64,000 nucleotides of DNA, taken from Catenaria anguillulae PL171. Its lineage: Eukaryota; Blastocladiomycota; Blastocladiomycetes; Blastocladiales; Catenariaceae. Positions 6,945-29,390 of this stretch are shown piece after piece. How positions within the stretch are numbered: position 1 is the stretch's first letter; every line of letters starts with the position of its first letter. The DNA is taken from the NCBI GenBank assembly GCA_002102555.1, contig MCFL01000015.1, positions 186,001 to 250,000 on the forward strand, given 5' to 3'. The position numbers were made by a program, and so were the translations under genes. Under the pieces are notes generated by a model. The model was not told the origin of the DNA and made no database searches. It saw nothing but the letters and a program-made list of their open reading frames with translations.

Positions 6945-8483
6945 AAGAGAAAGCGAGCCCACCAGACCGGAGTCACCACCACCATCTCCCGCACCCGGTC
7001 GTGGCGAAGGCGCGCCAACACCTGTGGGATCAGCCAAGGTGGAGGGAACGCGTAGCCGCCCTCGAGTGGCCATGTCGACTGCGAAAACACGTCTGTGCCG
7101 GCGGCAAATGAATCGTGCCACCGAGAATAGAACCAAGGGCACTTCGGTGTCCGACGAGGCGAATAAGTCGAGTGAGCGAGCGTCCCACGCGCGCTCCATC
7201 CAGCGGAATGCTGGCATTGTCATGCCGTAGTCGTGGTTGTCGAAGAGACGAGAAGCCGCAGCTGCACTGCTGTTGTCCACACCAGCTATATGTTGCGCAC
7301 CCAGGTTGATGTGCTTGGCCATGCACACCGCCCATATCCGCTTGGCCAGAAGATCCAGATCCAGCAACGCATGACCGCCCTGCCGACGGACATATGCCAC
7401 CGTGGTTGTGTTGTCCGAACGCAGCAAAACTGACTTGCCCGCCCAAGCGTCTGCGTTCAACGTCACCGCGTGCAAAACCGCGCCGAGCTCGCGCCAGTTC
7501 GAGGACCGCCCGTCGGCCATGGAGCCCCAGCGGCCTTGCTGCATGTTGGATCCGTGAACGGCGCCCCAGCCCACACCCGATGCGTCGGTGTACACCGTCA
7601 CGTCCGGGGGCTTCGGAATCAACGCTTGGCCGTTCCACCCGGACAGCGCCGACGCCCACCACTGAAGCTCGGTCTGGGCGGACGGCGAGATCGGTACGGG
7701 ACGCTCCCAGGACAGCGTCGTGCGAAGTGCGAAGTGCAGGTTGCGCTGCAAGAAGCGTTGGTTGATTGATGCCGGCAGACCTGCTGGGGCCACGGCGTTG
7801 ACCGTTCCAAGGAAGCGTGCGAGAGACCTTGCCGAGGCCGACTTGGCGTTCAAGAGGCTGCGAGCCTCCCGCCCAATGTACTTGAACGTGGTCCGCGGAA
7901 CCCGCAAGAGCATCCTCCGCGTGTTGATCTCGAAGCCCAGGAAGTCGATCACTTGCGTTGGATCCAGCACGGACTTGGACATGATGAGCGTGAAGCCCAA
8001 TTCGGCGAGGTGAGCAACCACTTGATTCGCTGCCGAGCGCGCTGCCTCCGCTGAATCCGCCAAAACCAAGATGTCGTCCAGGTACCAAACCAGACGAATG
8101 CCGCGAGCAACCAGGGGGCGAAGTGCAGCCGACATGACGCGCGTGAAGATCTGTGGAGCAGGGCTCATGCTAAAGAAAAGTGTCCGCCACTGGAAAGTCA
8201 CGCCTTCCCAAGTGAAGCTGAAGAAGTGGCGAAACATTTCGTTCAACAGCACGGCAAAGTAGGCATCCTTGGCGTCGATCTTGCATGCGAAGTCGCCCTT
8301 GCGCACCATTGACCGAGCCGTATGAATGCTCGACATTTTGAACTTGTCGTGTGCAAGGAACTGGTTGATCCACCTCGCGTCGAAGCAGACCCGCCTCTTG
8401 CCCGACGGTTGGGTCACAACAAAGGGGTTCATAAACGAGTGAGGATCCATCGTTGACGGCGGCGGTGGCACGGTGCGAGACAA
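6897..8483 (-). pseudogene. Reverse transcriptase-RNase H remnant of the DIRS-like element
   Basis: A frame of about 528 residues carries RT motifs (CFDARWINQF, KIDAKDAYF, the catalytic box WYLDDILVLA) followed by RNase H (VYTDASGVGWG, WRELGAVLHA, LRSDNTTTVAYV). The RT is 5'-truncated, with an in-frame TGA just upstream near 8545. Near 7067 homology moves to another frame, where a typical DIRS C-terminal YAFPPPWLIP motif continues until the terminal repeat. Loss of the N-terminus, the frame break and the absent recombinase make an active protein unlikely. Confidence 0.75.
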
Positions 8484-21166: not shown

Positions 21167-21454
21167 TTTTGATTGGTGATTGCTTTGCTTTGCTTTGGAA
21201 TGTAAAGAAATACGGTATTTGTAGTTGCGTCTCGAGGGATGTTAATATTTTTCAACGTTTTCAATGCCAAGCTTTTAAGTGAAGACTCTGGCGAGTGGCG
21301 ACACTTGTTAGGTCAGTTGCAGTCGGATCGGATCGGCGGCCTGCCTCACCCGCAGCCTCTTATTATTTCCAACGCCAACGTCTTGGGCCAACTGCTGCAC
21401 GATGTTTATCATGTGTGGTGCTACATATATGTAAAGTCCAATCTATTCGTCACC

Positions 21455-21774
21455 ATGGCCATCAACACCTCAACCTTTGTCACGGACACGAACCGCAAAA
21501 TCAACGCCCAGGTCCTCGACCTCTCGGTCCACATTGCCCGCCACCAGCTCCACTCTGCCACTGCGACTGCGACTGCGGCTGCTGCGGCCACCACCACACA
21601 TCCTGTCAACACGGCATGGCGCACAAACCTCGCCAACGCCGTCGACCATCTCCGCCACCAGCTCTCGCTGCTCAGCTCGCTCCCCGCCCACCATGACTCA
21701 CTCCTCCTCGCCACCCTGCTTGCCGAACACTTGCGCGACGCCCTCTCCAACCACTACTCGGTCCTTCCTCCCGG

Positions 21775-21807
<33 letters not shown>

Positions 21808-23763
21808 GAGCACCCTTGACGACCATGATGACACCGGATCCATCTCTCGTTCCGCCGTCGCACAGCGCAACGCGGCCGACCCACACGCTGCCCGTCTCTT
21901 TGCCGAGTTTGAAACCCTCACCTGGTTCCTGCTCGGCAAATCCGCCGCCACCGCCTACACTCACTTGATGCAGTCCATGCTCGACCAAACTCTGGCCGTG
22001 CAGCGCGAGGCTGCCTACTGGCGAGACCTGCACCCGGGCTGGTATTTCGCCATGTCCATGCCGTCGCGCTTCCTCGGCATCTTCAAATCGCGCCATCCGC
22101 TCCGCTCCTTGATTGTGTGGAACCCAAAGACACTGGTCGACCAACTGGCCGCGTTCAAGGTCCTTGGCGCTTCCGGTAACAAGTCGCTGCTGCATTTTCC
22201 TGCACAGCTCGCCGCGCAAGACGTCCAGCACCACATCAAGGCACTCACGGCGGCCCAGCGTGTGTTTGCCAGCCAGTTGGGCAAGTTGTACGATGTCGTG
22301 ATGCACGAAGACGCAAATGAGTTTACTTTGGCCGCGTCGTCGCTCTTGTCGGATCGCGACAATCAGCCGCTCACACAGCTCAAAGTGCACGTGTCGACGC
22401 TGGTGGATACCATGCATCAAGTGCAGCGCCGCACTCAGACACTTGCTGCCACTGCGTCGTCCTCATCGTCCTCCTCCTCTGGTGCCGCCGATGCAGGCTC
22501 ATCGGCCAGCTCGGACATTGATGATTCGGACTCGGAAGACGACCGCCCATTGCTTTCTGCACTCACCACCACATCCTTGCTCCCCTCTGCCTCGCGCACA
22601 TTTACGCAACTCATTGCCATTGCCTCGCACCTGCCCACCCCGCAACTCACGACCCAATCCATCCTCACGCGCCACGCGCGCCCCTCGCGCCTCACGCGCT
22701 ACTGGCTCCCACTCACCTTGACACTCTCGGGCACGTTGCTAGCCGCTCAACAAGTCCAGCTCAACCTGCCCACGCTGCAATCCGCTCTGGTAGCCGCAGC
22801 GCAATTCACACGCAACGCCGTGTCGGACTGGCTCGTGACCCCGCTCGTAGGCATGTACGAAACCATCCGGCACCGCGAACACCGGTTGGCCATCATGGGT
22901 GCACGATCGCTTGCGGCCGACCTCGAGTCGCTCGAGCGCATGGTTGTAGAATATGCACGCACACACGCCAATGTGTCTGCGCAGGACCTCGACGCGTTGC
23001 GTGCGGCCGTCAGGCTGGGCGATTTGGACTTGGTGTTGCGCGACTATGAGCTGGGCGTGCAATCGCCCCTAAAGTCGGCGCTGCTTGGGCCCTTGCTCAC
23101 GCTCATGTTGATTCAAGTGCAAAAGACCAAAGTGGATTTGGAGCTGGCCATGGCCGCGCTCGACAAGTTGCTCAAGGCCAACGAATTGAATTTCGGCTTG
23201 TTGGCCGTGGTCCCTGCCGTGGCCGTGGCCTGGTGGAGCGTGCGCAAGGCGCGCGAGTGGGTCGGCGCGCGCGCCAGTGGTGGGGTCAAGCGCGCACGCG
23301 CCAGGTTTGTCAAGGGCTTGTGGGTTGTGGAAAAAGTGGTTGCCCCGGGATCGGGACAGGTGGTAGGCGACGGGGATCCAGACGAGGGCGAGGCAAGTAT
23401 CAAGTTGGCCAGGGCCGCAGATGCCGGCGCAGCCGCCATGCGTAGGAGGGTGGTGGGCAGAAAGGCTGGCGGCGTGAATGCAAGGACTGAGGCACATGTC
23501 AAGCTTGGGTACATTTTTTCTTTTCCTCGTCCATCACAATGGACAGCGGACTCACTCTCGAGCGTGTTCCCAGGTTGACGCTTATTGAAGTCAACTACCT
23601 CAAGCACCTCGTCTCAAAGATGGGCCTGTCGGCCGAGATTCAGGGCATGTTGCTTTCGGACCTGCGCGACGTGGAGCAGGCGCCAGCGGCGGGGCCAGAG
23701 GTCGGCGTGGCGCTCGAGCGCATTCATCGGTTGGTTGTTCGGTACAACTTGACACATGCCTGA
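21455..23763 (+). CDS. NCA2: NCA2-like mitochondrial protein (nuclear control of ATPase 2)
   Basis: Two exons (21455-23508 and 23574-23763) give 747 residues. The N-terminal part is Ala/His-rich with a Gly-Ser repeat (about 21774-21808). The C-terminal half contains hydrophobic helices and the hallmark segment LIQVQKTKVDLELAMAALDK, then LLKANELNFGLLAVVPAV. Exon 2 supplies the conserved C-terminal EVNYLKHLVSKMG plus ERIHRLVVRYN. In yeast NCA2 is a mitochondrial membrane protein that affects expression of Atp6 and Atp8. The ATG at 21455 was preferred to the upstream 21239 start because of its CACCATGG context. The frame is intact across 2 kb, unlike conserved genes after 38 kb. Confidence 0.85.
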
Positions 23764-23890: not shown

Positions 23891-26800
23891 TCAAGACTTG
23901 ACATTCAAACTCAAACCCCTGGGTCTCGGCGCGCCCGCCGCCGTCACGGCCGGCGCACTCAAATACCCGTGCTCCTGTGGACCAATTGACCCGGACTTTT
24001 TCACCGCGGTCGCCATTCCTGCTCCGCCTCCACCTTTGCCCAACTTGCCACTAGCGTCACTCGACGTCCCGCCCCCACTCGTGCTCATACTTGCTGCGCG
24101 CTGCCCGGCACCCAATGCTTGCATTGCCGCTGCCCACCGCCCACGTTCGGTGTGTGAATTGAACTGAATCATAAAGGCATTGGTCGACCCCGATGGCAGT
24201 GAAATGGCGATACAGTTTGGGTAGTCGACCGGGTCCACATCGAGAATGCATGCGCGCACGCGCAGGGCTTGGCCGTGCGGGCTGCCGAGAAGCGGTGCAC
24301 CCGTGGCCGACGTGCCGCCGCCGCCGCCGCCGCCACCCGTGGTGGTGGATGCGCCCGACGCGGTCGACGAGTATGGGAACAGGGTCAGGACGCCTTCGCT
24401 CGTTGAGAGCGTCACTTCGTACCGGGACCAGCGTCGGAACAGGCCAGTCGTCGGCTTGATTGCATAGACGCCGCCAAAGCTTGACTGTATGTCGTGCGAC
24501 GACGAGGGTCAGGGAATTCACCAGAAATCTCAAGTAAATGAACTTGACAAGTATTCCAGTAGGAACGAACCTTGCCAAGTGTGGATCCTTGACCACCAGC
24601 CATGCTGGACGACAATGCACCCGATCCGGCAACCATGGACGAGCCCTCCTCCTCTCCTTCGTTGACTGTCTGAACCATGGATGCAGGCGTGGGCGCGGCA
24701 ACAGATTCTTGGCGGAGGTGAATGACGTGCCGGAAAACTACTCGGTAAATGTTGTGGGGAACGTGAGACAAGGGCCAGTTACGATCGCGTCAGCATCACA
24801 AGCGACGAACCCATGGTGAGAAACAGGATCAAGTTGGCGTAAATGACGCCAATCGCCTTGACGAAATAGACCGTGACCGATTGCGATTCAAAGAGAGCGG
24901 CGAGGGCAAAGGAAATGATCGCGGCCAGCTGTATTTACAAGCCGTCACACAAACAAATCAGTGGAAACATTGACAAACGCTGGTTGAGATTGCTGCGTAC
25001 AATAAGGTTGTGAATCGCAATGGCAATGTACACAGTGTCTTTGAACGAGGTGTGAACTTGCCGGGTCTTCCATGAAATGACGCCAAGGAGGAACAAGAGG
25101 ATGCTGGTCCACGTCCGACACAAGAACAAGTCAGACGTAGTTGCAATTGAACCGAAAGGCAAGAAAGGAGAAAACGCACGCATCCAAACTGGCCGCCGTA
25201 TAAAACAAGCCATCGGCAACACCTTGCCCGCTCCCATCCACACACAAGTCTTGTGCCAGCGACCCGCTCGACAGCACCACGCGCACCGGCTTGTGTCCGC
25301 CTTGGGCATTCATCACGCCCAACAGTACCACCTGCACGACGGGCATCACCATCATGCGCCGCACAAGCGCTACCGTCTTGATCGAGTGGCTCTTTGACAG
25401 AATTCGGTTGTCGTATACCATCCAGATGCGGTACAGCCGGATCCAGATGCTGCTGAGGCAGAGCGAAAAGCCAAGCACAAGTGTCCAGTACTGCGCCGTG
25501 CACGTCGCAGACGTGGGCATGCCTGCGCTGATAATGGGTGTGGCGAGCGAAATACAAAGTCCCACACAGAAAACTGTAATGAATGGCAAGCCAAGGTGCC
25601 GGACACGCCGTGATTTGCGGTAGAATAGAATGATGCACCACGAAACTAGCACTGCCAGCATGAGGAGCCCCGATATCGCTTGAATGACAATAACGCCTGG
25701 CGTCTCGCGCGCTGGAAACAAGACGGTGTACTTTGCTCGGCCATCCGGAATCGTACTGGAACCGTCGAGAAGTTGGATGGGATCTAATGCGCGCAGCTGA
25801 CCGTCTGGCTGTTGACGAAACACAATGGCTTTGGACCCGTTGGCTCGCACATTGTACACGAGATAGGTTCCATTTCGGTCGCCGCTCGGCTCAAATACGG
25901 TGCGCCCAGATACGGTGTCCCGTGGAACTGAGATATAGTCGGCCAGCCCGGGAACATAAGTCTTGTTTCGAATGCTTGCGAGCCCACCGACGCTCGGCCG
26001 TTGCAAAATGTCGAGCCAGGAATGGACAAGAACCTCGGCGCACCCTGCCAAGTGCAGGGCGTATAGGGTCTGAGAAAACACCTGGTCGCCAAACTGCTGT
26101 TGCCACCGCGCTGCCATCGTGTCAAACCGTGGGAATCCCGGGTTAGCTTCAATGGAAGCTACAGCAAGGATCCCATTGTAGTAGACTCGTTCACGCTCCG
26201 TCAGCGAGCCATCACTCGAGGCGGAAAAGGTCAGCGCATTGTCGCCGCCAATCAGCACCCAGTCTCGGCCCAAGTTGGTCTTGGCAGCGGCTTTGGCGAA
26301 CAAAACAAACTCTTTGGTTTGAATCAGTGTGATGAGAATGCGCGACGGGCTCTTGGCGAGCGTTTGGACGGCAAGGTCATAGTCGGATTGGGTTGCTTTG
26401 TTGGTCGCTGGAACGGTGACCGTGACATGTGTTTGGATGTTGCCAAGGGCTTGAGCCGTTTCACGAAAGGCGGCAAGGACTACATATTTGCACAACAGCA
26501 TGTTACTCCTACGAGGACTTACAGTATTGGAATGCGGACAAGTATGAGTTCGCGACGTACCAGACAGTCCAAAGGCATCCTCAGCAACGAGAACGTTGAC
26601 CAATGCCCAATTCCAACGCTTGCAGAGATGGGCCAGGAAGGCTCCTTGACCAGCTGTCATGGAGTGAATTTGCACGGCGGCGTTAGCATGTACCCATGTT
26701 GATTGTTCACGAACGGATGAAGAGACCATCGGACGCAATCAGTCGAAAGTACAGAGGGTAAATGGACTTGTTGGAGAGATCGGTCGCTGTTGCTGCACCA

Positions 26801-27459
26801 CCACACATTGGAACCCCAAATGCATTTGTCGCTGTTCCATGTGACGATGGGTGTGTACTTAGTCGAAACAATCACAAGGCAGTCATGGACTGCGGTGACG
26901 CAACGCACTCAGGGCCGCGGCAATCGAATTGGTAGACGTCCTGGGAAACGGACAAATAGATCCAAGTTAGAGATCAAGTTGACGACTCGGAAAACAGTGA
27001 TTTGCTTTCTGGTTGGCGTTATATACTTACCACTCCCCGATTAGACCAAGCGCCCCTTGTTGCTGAGCATGAATCGCCGATGTTGCGGTCTGCCGAAGAC
27101 CAAACCCACTGTCAAAATGTCTCAGGTTGAATCGATATCCAGCAGGTTGGGCGACGTTTTCGTTCAAGTCTGAGGTCACAAAGTCCAAAATCTTGAGGGT
27201 ATTGTTGAGCATTGAGACATAACCGTCCACTGAAATCAAAATGGGATGGTTATCATGTCAGCAATAGTCCATCGATCCTACCAGTTAAGCATTGTTTACG
27301 GAGTTCAGGGGGCATACATTTGACGGCCTGCAAACTTGCAGCAGAGGGAAGGATGACTCCCAACGTCAGGTTTACTGGTGCTAGCTGCGCATTCGTTCCA
27401 ATAACTCGCAGAACCAAGACTAGGATGACCGAAAGGGTTACGGTGCGAGAAACTCGCAT
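23891..27459 (-). CDS. Class C (GABA-B-like) GPCR with C-terminal PH domain
   Basis: Ten exons, from 27459-27282, 27229-27031, 26940-26909, 26831-26727, 26653-26561, 26479-25180, 25103-25001, 24928-24811 and 24737-24571 to 24484-23891, join in consistent phases to 962 residues. A signal peptide (residues 1-24) precedes a periplasmic-binding-type ligand domain (about 25-455) with GLIGEWTSTNS, VPMCGGAATATDLSNKS, YPLYFRLIASD and a FAKAAAKTNLGRDWVLIGGD segment. Seven helices (about 465-710) follow in the class C manner, with SWKTRQVHTSFKDTVYIAIA after helix 5. The tail ends in a PH domain (about 766-885): GGVYAIKPTTGLFRRWSRYE, then an inserted Gly run, then FMIQFNSHTERGRWAAAMQ with the conserved Trp. 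GABA-B-like receptors are known from zoosporic fungi and amoebae. A PH tail would tether it to phosphoinositides or Gbeta-gamma. Confidence 0.8.
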
Positions 27460-28097
27460 GATGTCGAAAGAGAAGAGCATTGCACCCAGTGATTCTACTG
27501 TCTTAGTTGGTTCATGCACTCGATTTATCAGAAAACCCTGGGCATCAATTTGCCTCCGACCGGGGGAAACAACTTGGCGGTTTGTGTGCGTGTTCGCAGC
27601 AAAGTCCCTCTTGTTCGCGGCCCTCGGCGATGAAAATGAAAGGTCAAGTAAGTAAGTAGCAGAACAGCATCGCTTTGCCACGACTCATTGCATGAAAGAG
27701 GAAGAAAAATATTACTTAGATTTCTGGTCAGACGCTTTGACCTGGGGGCATTCGCTGGCTCATGACGTTATCAGTAGTCCCGTTGCCGATTCGCTGTCAT
27801 GAAGTATGCGTTGATGTGTCACACGAGTGCGCTGCAGACACATACCCATTTTGTTTGAATTGAATCGATGCATCAAGCATGGCCAGCCGTTCTCCCAGAT
27901 CACGAGCAGCTTCTTTGACCGTTCTACGTGACATCGCATTGCGAAGGGGCCTTGAATGGCATTGCACAACGAGCGTCGGGTATGAAACACAGTGCAGCCA
28001 TGCCAAGTCGGCTTTTCATCGCGCCTGTTTCACAATCACGGTTTGTCTCGGTTTACAATCGCATGCACATCATGTCTCATGGCGACTGTGTTGACTC
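27460..28097. other. Intergenic region between GPCR and PIMT-A duplication
   Basis: About 640 bp, the divergent promoter side of the GPCR gene. No credible gene or repeat was seen. Confidence 0.4.
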
Positions 28098-29389
28098 CAT
28101 TCTGACTCGATGAGGGCTGAAGCCACAAACCGCAGTGGGCATTGGGCCACTATCAAGGTAAGTAGCATAGAAGAGCGATTCCTCAGATGCATCGTATCGC
28201 TCTACCGATGGAATCGCGCACGAAACGGACTTCTTTGTTGGGCATTTTGACTCATTTCAGATTCTTCCTCGGATCTGGTGCGGTATGGGCTGGTCTTGTC
28301 TCACCTCCTCAGGCTGCTCTTTGGCTCCAACTTGAAGCGATCACGACAAGCCAGATGGCGGCATGTTGCAGAGGGTTGTCTGCCGACCACCAAACTTGTA
28401 ATCAATAAGCGAGGAATTGGCAGAAAATGGCATAAAAGACGAGCCCGACCCGCCCAATTCTTCAACGACTGAACGATATCCAATTCAGCATCCTTCTTCC
28501 CATCAACACAACACAGTCCCTCACTTCTGCCCACCACGCATTCACCATGTCCACTACCATCACTCCTACTCCCGCTGCCGCTTCTGCGGCCACTCCCACC
28601 AAGTACACCCCCTTCATTGGCTCGTCCAACGACGATCTCATTGAGCACATTGCCAGTACGGATTCCCTCGTGATCGCTTTGGAATTGCACAAAGTCTGAA
28701 TCTCGCATCTGTCTGTCTCATCCGTCCACAGCTACTCGTGGCATCGTCACGTCCGAACGCATCAAGCAGGTCATGAAGTCTGTCGACCGCGCCTTCTTTG
28801 CGCCGGGGACCGACCCGTCCATTGCCTACATTGACGCACCCAAGCAAATCGGGTACGGCGCAACCATCTCTGCCCCGCACGTCCACGGCCACACTCTGCA
28901 GCTCCTCGAGTCGTACCTGCACCCTGGTGCACGCGCCCTTGACATTGGCTGCGGCTCGGGCATTGTGGTGGCCTACATGTCGCAGCTCGTGGGCGAGTCT
29001 GGCCGCGTTGTCGGCATCGAGCACATTCCCGAGCTTGCTCAGCTCGCCCAAGACAACCTCAACAAGTGGGACGCCACCTTGCTCGCATCCGACTCGGAGC
29101 GTGTTGTCGTGTACGCAGGCGATGGCCGCTTGGGCGATGCTGCCCGCGGTCCGTACCAGGCGATTTGTGTCGGAGCAGCTGCGCCCGAGGTTCCGCAAGT
29201 GTTGGTGGACCAGCTTGCATCCCCCGGCCGCATGATTGTGCCCGTTGGGCAGTCGGGTCCCGGTCTCATGCAAGAGCTGATCCAAGTCGACAAAGATGCC
29301 AGTGGCAATGTGACCGAGACGGTGTTGCGCGTGGTCAAGTTTGTGCCCTTGACTGACAAGGATGAGCAAATTGCAAGCGCCGTGGCCTA
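28098..29389. repeat. Segmental duplication, copy A (inverted copy at 58484-59775)
   Basis: About 1.29 kb matches the reverse complement of 58484-59775. Homology starts at ATTCTGACTCGATGAGG, about 450 bp upstream of the PIMT start, and stops within the stop codon (CCTAG here, CCTGA in copy B). Coding parts are almost identical, while the upstream part carries more substitutions and small indels. Confidence 0.9.
28431..28440 (+). promoter_or_regulatory. TATA-like element of PIMT copy A
   Basis: CATAAAAGAC lies about 110 bp upstream of the start codon. The same element and spacing are kept in copy B (about 59441-59450 on minus), while nearby bases differ. That suggests it is functional. Confidence 0.4.
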
Positions 29390-29390
29390 G
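28547..29390 (+). CDS. PCMT1: Protein-L-isoaspartate O-methyltransferase, copy A
   Basis: Two exons (28547-28655, 28732-29390) give 255 residues. The enzyme methylates L-isoaspartyl residues in damaged proteins using SAM and starts their repair. Family signatures are complete: DRAFF near residue 60, YIDAPKQIGYGATISAPHVH (substrate loop), the SAM motif LDIGCGSGIV, VVGIEHIPEL, and DGRLG with AICVGAAAPEVP. The C-terminal VPVGQSGPGLMQ is also conserved. No targeting peptide is seen, so it is cytosolic. Residues 1-25 are a Thr/Ala/Pro-rich extension. A near-identical inverted paralogue lies at 58.5-59.3 kb. Confidence 0.93.

Follow-up and report, generated by a model that had tools for sequence, protein, structure and literature searches.

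The window analysed here, a 64,000-nucleotide stretch of Catenaria anguillulae PL171 DNA (C57:186001-250000), encodes a class C receptor whose cytoplasmic tail ends in a PH domain, an architecture that we regard as practically certain. This receptor is a member of an expanded family of receptors with built-in PH domains in Catenaria. The architecture, the PH fold of the tail, its recurrence in the genome (41.07 Mb, 457 contigs searched) and its presence in two genera were established by computation. Our full reading is that the protein is a GABA-B-like class C receptor to which a PH domain is covalently joined on the cytoplasmic side, that it belongs to an expanded family in which this fusion is old, and that the PH domain serves as a docking module; we give this statement as a whole a probability of about 0.6. 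The preliminary description of this DNA reported a single receptor. The receptor itself stands, and it turns out to be one of many.

Gene model and domains of the window receptor

The receptor gene lies on the minus strand and was rebuilt from the DNA as ten exons, with GT-AG borders at every intron, consistent phases and no internal stops, in agreement with the ten-exon splicing originally proposed. Exons 1-5 occupy positions 27480-27282 (or to 27300 or 27318), 27229-27031, 26940-26909, 26831-26715 and 26653-26561, and exons 6-10 occupy 26479-25180, 25103-25001, 24928-24811, 24737-24571 and 24484-23891. Three donors of intron 1, at 27281, 27299 and 27317, keep the frame and give products of 973, 967 and 961 residues, respectively, none with an internal stop. 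We prefer the donor at 27317, because the paralogue P0002 appears by eye to lack the extra residues. The start codon may be at 27480 or 27459, and the latter makes each product 7 residues shorter; the length of 962 residues given earlier matches none of the three. Exon 1 (27318-27480, or from 27282 or 27300 with the other donors; minus strand) contains the start and a hydrophobic stretch that resembles a signal peptide by eye, and P0002 likewise has a hydrophobic N-terminal start by eye. The public Catenaria anguillulae PL171 protein P0001 is identical to the rebuilt model from the methionine in exon 2 onward, including the tail. Exon 1 is missing from this public model, which therefore has no signal peptide. 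Another public paralogue model, P0003, is partial and stops short of helix 7 and the tail.

The ligand-binding domain (ANF_receptor, residues 84-424 of the 973-residue model) is encoded by exons 2-6 at 25848-27179 on the minus strand and scores 70.7 bits against a Pfam cut-off of 25.4. The seven-helix domain (7tm_3, residues 474-720) is encoded by exons 6-8 at 24812-25700 on the same strand and scores 104.1 bits against a cut-off of 33.5; the search of the Catenaria genome matched it at C57:211155-211700, which is 25155-25700 of the window. Both scores identify the product as a class C receptor, as had been claimed. The same Pfam search found no NCD3G domain and no catalytic family in the window protein. 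Downstream of helix 7, all on the minus strand, are intron 8 (24738-24810), exon 9 (24571-24737), which encodes the end of helix 7 and a linker rich in Ser, Gly and Glu, and intron 9 (24485-24570), which directly precedes the PH domain. The junctions 24811/24737 and 24571/24484 proposed earlier correspond to introns 24810-24738 and 24570-24485, and P0001 is spliced identically at both. The PH domain, with a Gly-rich insert, comprises the first 128 residues of exon 10 (24101-24484), and a low-complexity C-terminal end, including the stop codon, follows it (23891-24100). On the plus strand, a 790-residue open frame (21206-23578) encodes an NCA2 domain, of ATP synthase regulation (182.8 bits), and its 3' end faces that of the receptor gene, while a protein-L-isoaspartate O-methyltransferase (PCMT, 214.5 bits, 28674-29390) lies upstream of the receptor gene.

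The PH assignment of the tail comes from the alignment of the tail family (A1), PF00169, a profile search of the PDB, AlphaFold models and fold searches. A profile search for all three domains had been suggested; it recovered ANF_receptor and 7tm_3, whereas PH reached only 12.6 bits in the whole window protein and 16.0 bits in the tail alone, below the PF00169 cut-off of 25.1. Cutting out the Gly insert by hand raised the score to 21.7 bits, still below the cut-off. At the level of the family, 10 of the 11 tails match PF00169 at E values up to 10 (best 4.1e-6). A profile of the tails matched 32 PDB sequences at E values up to 10, the best being the PH domain of ORP11 (5e-5), and we take all 32 to be named PH domains or proteins known to carry one. 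The predicted structure of the tail is a seven-stranded barrel closed by a C-terminal helix, with pLDDT values of 71.6, 65.8, 59.4, 54.3 and 41.2 for the five tail models, so that one model, the best, is of fair quality and the others are not. A full-length model of P0004 (with P0002, P0001 and P0003) reached a pLDDT of 42.3 and was left out of the structural reading. The fold-defining Trp and Gly residues, including W117 in the C-terminal helix, are invariant in all 11 tails of A1. These results indicate that the tail family is homologous to PH domains, so that the proposed PH tail is upheld by the family profile and the fold, although the window protein alone stays under the cut-off. In the profile and fold searches, the PH domains of ORP11, PLEKHA3, pleckstrin, ArhGAP27 and Trio share both the fold and the Trp of the C-terminal helix with the receptor tails. 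Those domains belong to soluble or peripheral proteins, unlike the receptor-borne tails described here.

Attachment of the tail and extent of the family

If intron 8 of the window gene is left unspliced, a stop codon follows directly after helix 7, and the join between receptor and tail is thus a predicted one. The public model P0003, moreover, ends ahead of any tail. These points speak for a wrong join, in which the PH exon would be a gene of its own or an optional isoform, a reading that we consider extremely improbable in view of other loci where the two parts are continuous. In the paralogues L015 and L016, a single exon spans the site that intron 8 has in the window gene. One open frame of 483 residues at L024 contains 7tm_3 (108.4 bits) and a tail with PH (16.0 bits), and one of 499 residues at L003 contains 7tm_3 (146 bits) and a tail with PH_21 (16.9 bits) and PH (14.2 bits). 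At L051, an open frame of 430 residues combines a partial 7tm_3 (43.3 bits, cut-off 33.5) with PH at exactly its cut-off (25.1 bits); this frame covers 7tm_3 positions 97-218 only and may contain an unspliced in-frame intron. Equal frame lengths suggest that the seven helices and the tail are likewise in one frame on C2, C361, C62 and C414. The frames shared at L024, L003 and L051 also argue against a separate start for the PH exon, which had been named as a possible objection. With these one-frame loci and tail-bearing gene models in two genera, a separate gene or a mis-joined exon was dropped as the main reading, though an optional isoform may still exist.

Comparison of near-identical copies also bears on the attachment of the tail. 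In the part compared between the window gene and L010 on contig C75, the 1,416 exon bases are free of gaps and four introns have seven gap bases; the pair L021/L022 has gaps in neither exons nor introns and is hence uninformative on splicing. Within the PH part, the window/C75 pair differs by two synonymous and no non-synonymous changes and L021/L022 by four and one, compared with one synonymous and two non-synonymous changes in the L021/L022 linker. The changes in the PH part agree with constraint, in small numbers. Near-identical receptor copies on different contigs (C57/C75, L021/L022 and L018/L033) look like haplotypes or recent duplicates.

When the window tail was searched against its own genome, 38 of the 41 matches followed a same-strand 7tm_3 match at a distance of 250-1059 bases in the 3' direction; they belong to 24 of 121 merged 7tm_3 loci (best 150 of 169 7tm_3 candidates scored); the other three, on C1, C224 and C79, have no upstream 7tm_3 match. 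PF00169, a curated family independent of bias from the window query, gave 53 matches at E values up to 1, which merge into 50. Fifteen of these are no more than 2 kb away on the 3' side of a 7tm_3 locus; counted by strand, such flanks amount to 0.29% of the genome. With three further tail queries, 44 of the 121 7tm_3 loci carry a tail (from the best 150 of 169 candidates), and 4 of 41 merged tails have no 7tm_3 match upstream. After the weakest matches were dropped, this merged count used 22 of 41 matches of the window tail, 38 of 43, 30 of 48 and 26 of 40 of the further queries and all 53 of PF00169. The 44 tailed loci do not equal 44 genes, because the assembly has near-duplicate contigs: the C57 and C75 tails match the window query at 99 and 98%, and the 21 strong tails form 13 clusters at 90% identity.

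A sample of 20 loci (L029-L048) was taken in sorted order, disregarding tails. Eleven score above the best of 78 decoys (48.7), and L038 ties with it. Four exceed 100, three of which (L032, L033 and L039) are profile genes or near-copies. Seven weak tails in this sample are not taken as proven, and the seven helices are poorly placed at several loci; the weak tail of L035 has no Pfam match at all, and L047 scores 21.3 bits for PH. The spliced models elsewhere are rough, with a misplaced in-frame stop in the seven-helix part of L011 and L013 and a skipped piece in L019. Four tailed receptors lie within about 102 kb of C57 (109840-111264, 131153-132633, 166119-167840 and 209894-211700), and two of them share the strand and close sequence of the window gene; this cluster looks like a local expansion. 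The same genome also contains a divergent class C group (L001, L002, L004 and L006) in which a PH tail was undetected.

Catenaria belongs to the Catenariaceae (Blastocladiomycota, Blastocladiales). The same architecture, which it had been suggested to seek in other zoosporic fungi, was found in Blastocladiella emersonii (Blastocladiaceae): P0004 (808 residues) is 41% identical over 93% of the query and carries ANF_receptor, 7tm_3 and a tail with PH (18.3 bits) in the order of the window receptor. In the protein searches, the model tail retrieved P0001 alone, the seven helices plus tail of P0001 retrieved P0001-P0003, and alignment A2 added only P0004; no Allomyces, chytrid or other match appeared among the 7,992-7,997 candidates scored per search, those sharing the most exact words. 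A tree was built from 28 seven-helix rows (16 carrying a strong tail, 7 a weak one and 5 none), with near-copies and loci with poor or short seven-helix parts left out. Tail labels are clustered on it, changing 2, 3 and 2 times against shuffled means of 9.2, 6.5 and 4.8. Four of the five tail-less rows fall into one group (88/88, long branches), and L006 and L002 have long branches. The B. emersonii receptor groups with six Catenaria receptors (97/95) inside an eight-row tailed group (100/99). Since it nests among tailed Catenaria rows, the fusion of the seven helices and the PH domain is probably old and predates the split of Catenaria and Blastocladiella, given descent without transfer. The tree also allows that the fusion may have had a single origin.

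Possible roles of the PH domain

The receptor part of the protein points to ordinary class C signalling. A small ligand would close the extracellular venus-flytrap domain, and the seven helices would then rearrange and pass the signal to a heterotrimeric G protein, the route that other class C receptors use. For the PH domain, our leading mechanism, held tentatively and at somewhat less than even odds, is that of a non-catalytic docking module on a flexible linker. By eye, the linker has 37-51 residues in L024, P0004 and P0001 (about 51 in P0001). Weak binding to phosphoinositides of the inner leaflet, or to a partner at the membrane such as Gbeta-gamma or another signalling protein, may pin the tail, and would be enough because the receptor already keeps the PH domain at the membrane. 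The pinned tail would then place or gate the receptor.

The preliminary description had envisaged a more direct coupling to phosphoinositides or Gbeta-gamma. Phosphoinositide-binding PH domains of the GRP1/Akt type have the signature K-Xn-K/R-X-R in strands 1-2. Its last position, the Arg three residues after the strand-2 Trp, is a headgroup contact in GRP1. The PH fold of the tail, a Lys that ends strand 1 (conserved in 9 of 11 aligned rows), the RRW at strand 2 of the window receptor, P0002, L015 and P0004, and, in 4 of 13 tails, a basic residue two positions beyond the Trp would all suit a specific phosphoinositide or Gbeta-gamma sensor, through which ligand sensing is coupled directly to lipid state or G-protein release. 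The last Arg of the signature, however, is present in only 2 of the 13 tails and absent from that of the window and 10 others. A specific phosphoinositide receptor was not adopted for this reason, the direct coupling is not supported in the form first stated, and we consider such a sensor rather improbable. The basic pocket is thus weakly conserved, yet the Trp and Gly residues that define the fold are invariant, which is what a protein-protein adaptor with no lipid role, for instance in scaffolding, trafficking or flagellar targeting, might look like. Some basic residues are nevertheless kept by the subfamily of the window receptor, and while nothing counts directly against such an adaptor, we think it doubtful, if somewhat less so than the sensor. 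The docking module remains our preferred reading of the PH domain. A bolder proposal, which seems unlikely to us, is that of an undescribed ancient class C superfamily in early-diverging fungi, mostly with a PH domain in cis, in which zoospore sensing would be gated by lipid state or free Gbeta-gamma with no separately recruited effector.

Relation to known receptors

In animal GABA-B receptors, the ANF domain is joined directly to 7tm_3 and the tail is a coiled coil. The window receptor has the ANF-7tm_3 join in common with them and differs in its PH tail. PH domains usually enter GPCR signalling on separate proteins, which are kinases, exchange factors or phospholipases. To our knowledge, a PH domain that is part of the receptor itself, as at dozens of loci of the Catenaria genome and again in a second genus, is a new class C arrangement.

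Like Catenaria, Allomyces macrogynus has a large blastocladiomycete set of class C receptors, with 78 glutamate-family members and an ANF-type ligand domain with 7tm_3; the account, in the parts available, covers N-terminal domains, and the terms 'PH domain', 'pleckstrin' and 'C-terminal' are absent from them (Krishnan 2012, PMC3251606). The GPCR-bigrams (GPCR-PIPK, -INPP, -AC, -PDE and -TKL) resemble the window receptor in that their seven helices carry a cytoplasmic tail with a signalling domain and that they are expanded in zoosporic organisms, but their tails are catalytic and, in the sections available, their seven helices are not described as class C (PMC6033456, PMC5784254). A catalytic accessory domain is part of the GPCR-bigram definition in PMC6033456, and the window receptor, with its PH tail, falls outside it. 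GPCR-PIPKs seem to be absent from fungi, according to the part available of PMC5784254, and the available part of a 2025 survey of choanoflagellates describes kinase fusions (PMC12716839). The available portions of PMC3251606, PMC12716839, PMC6033456, PMC5784254, PMC10445921, PMC6733946 and PMC11878562 make no mention of a PH-tailed class C receptor. PH is missing from the Pfam lists precomputed for P0001, P0002 and P0004, so surveys based on Pfam architectures would miss these receptors.

The find is therefore broader than first noted: a family of PH-tailed class C receptors that is expanded in Catenaria and also occurs in Blastocladiella. It raises the testable question of what role a PH domain plays as a permanent part of a receptor.
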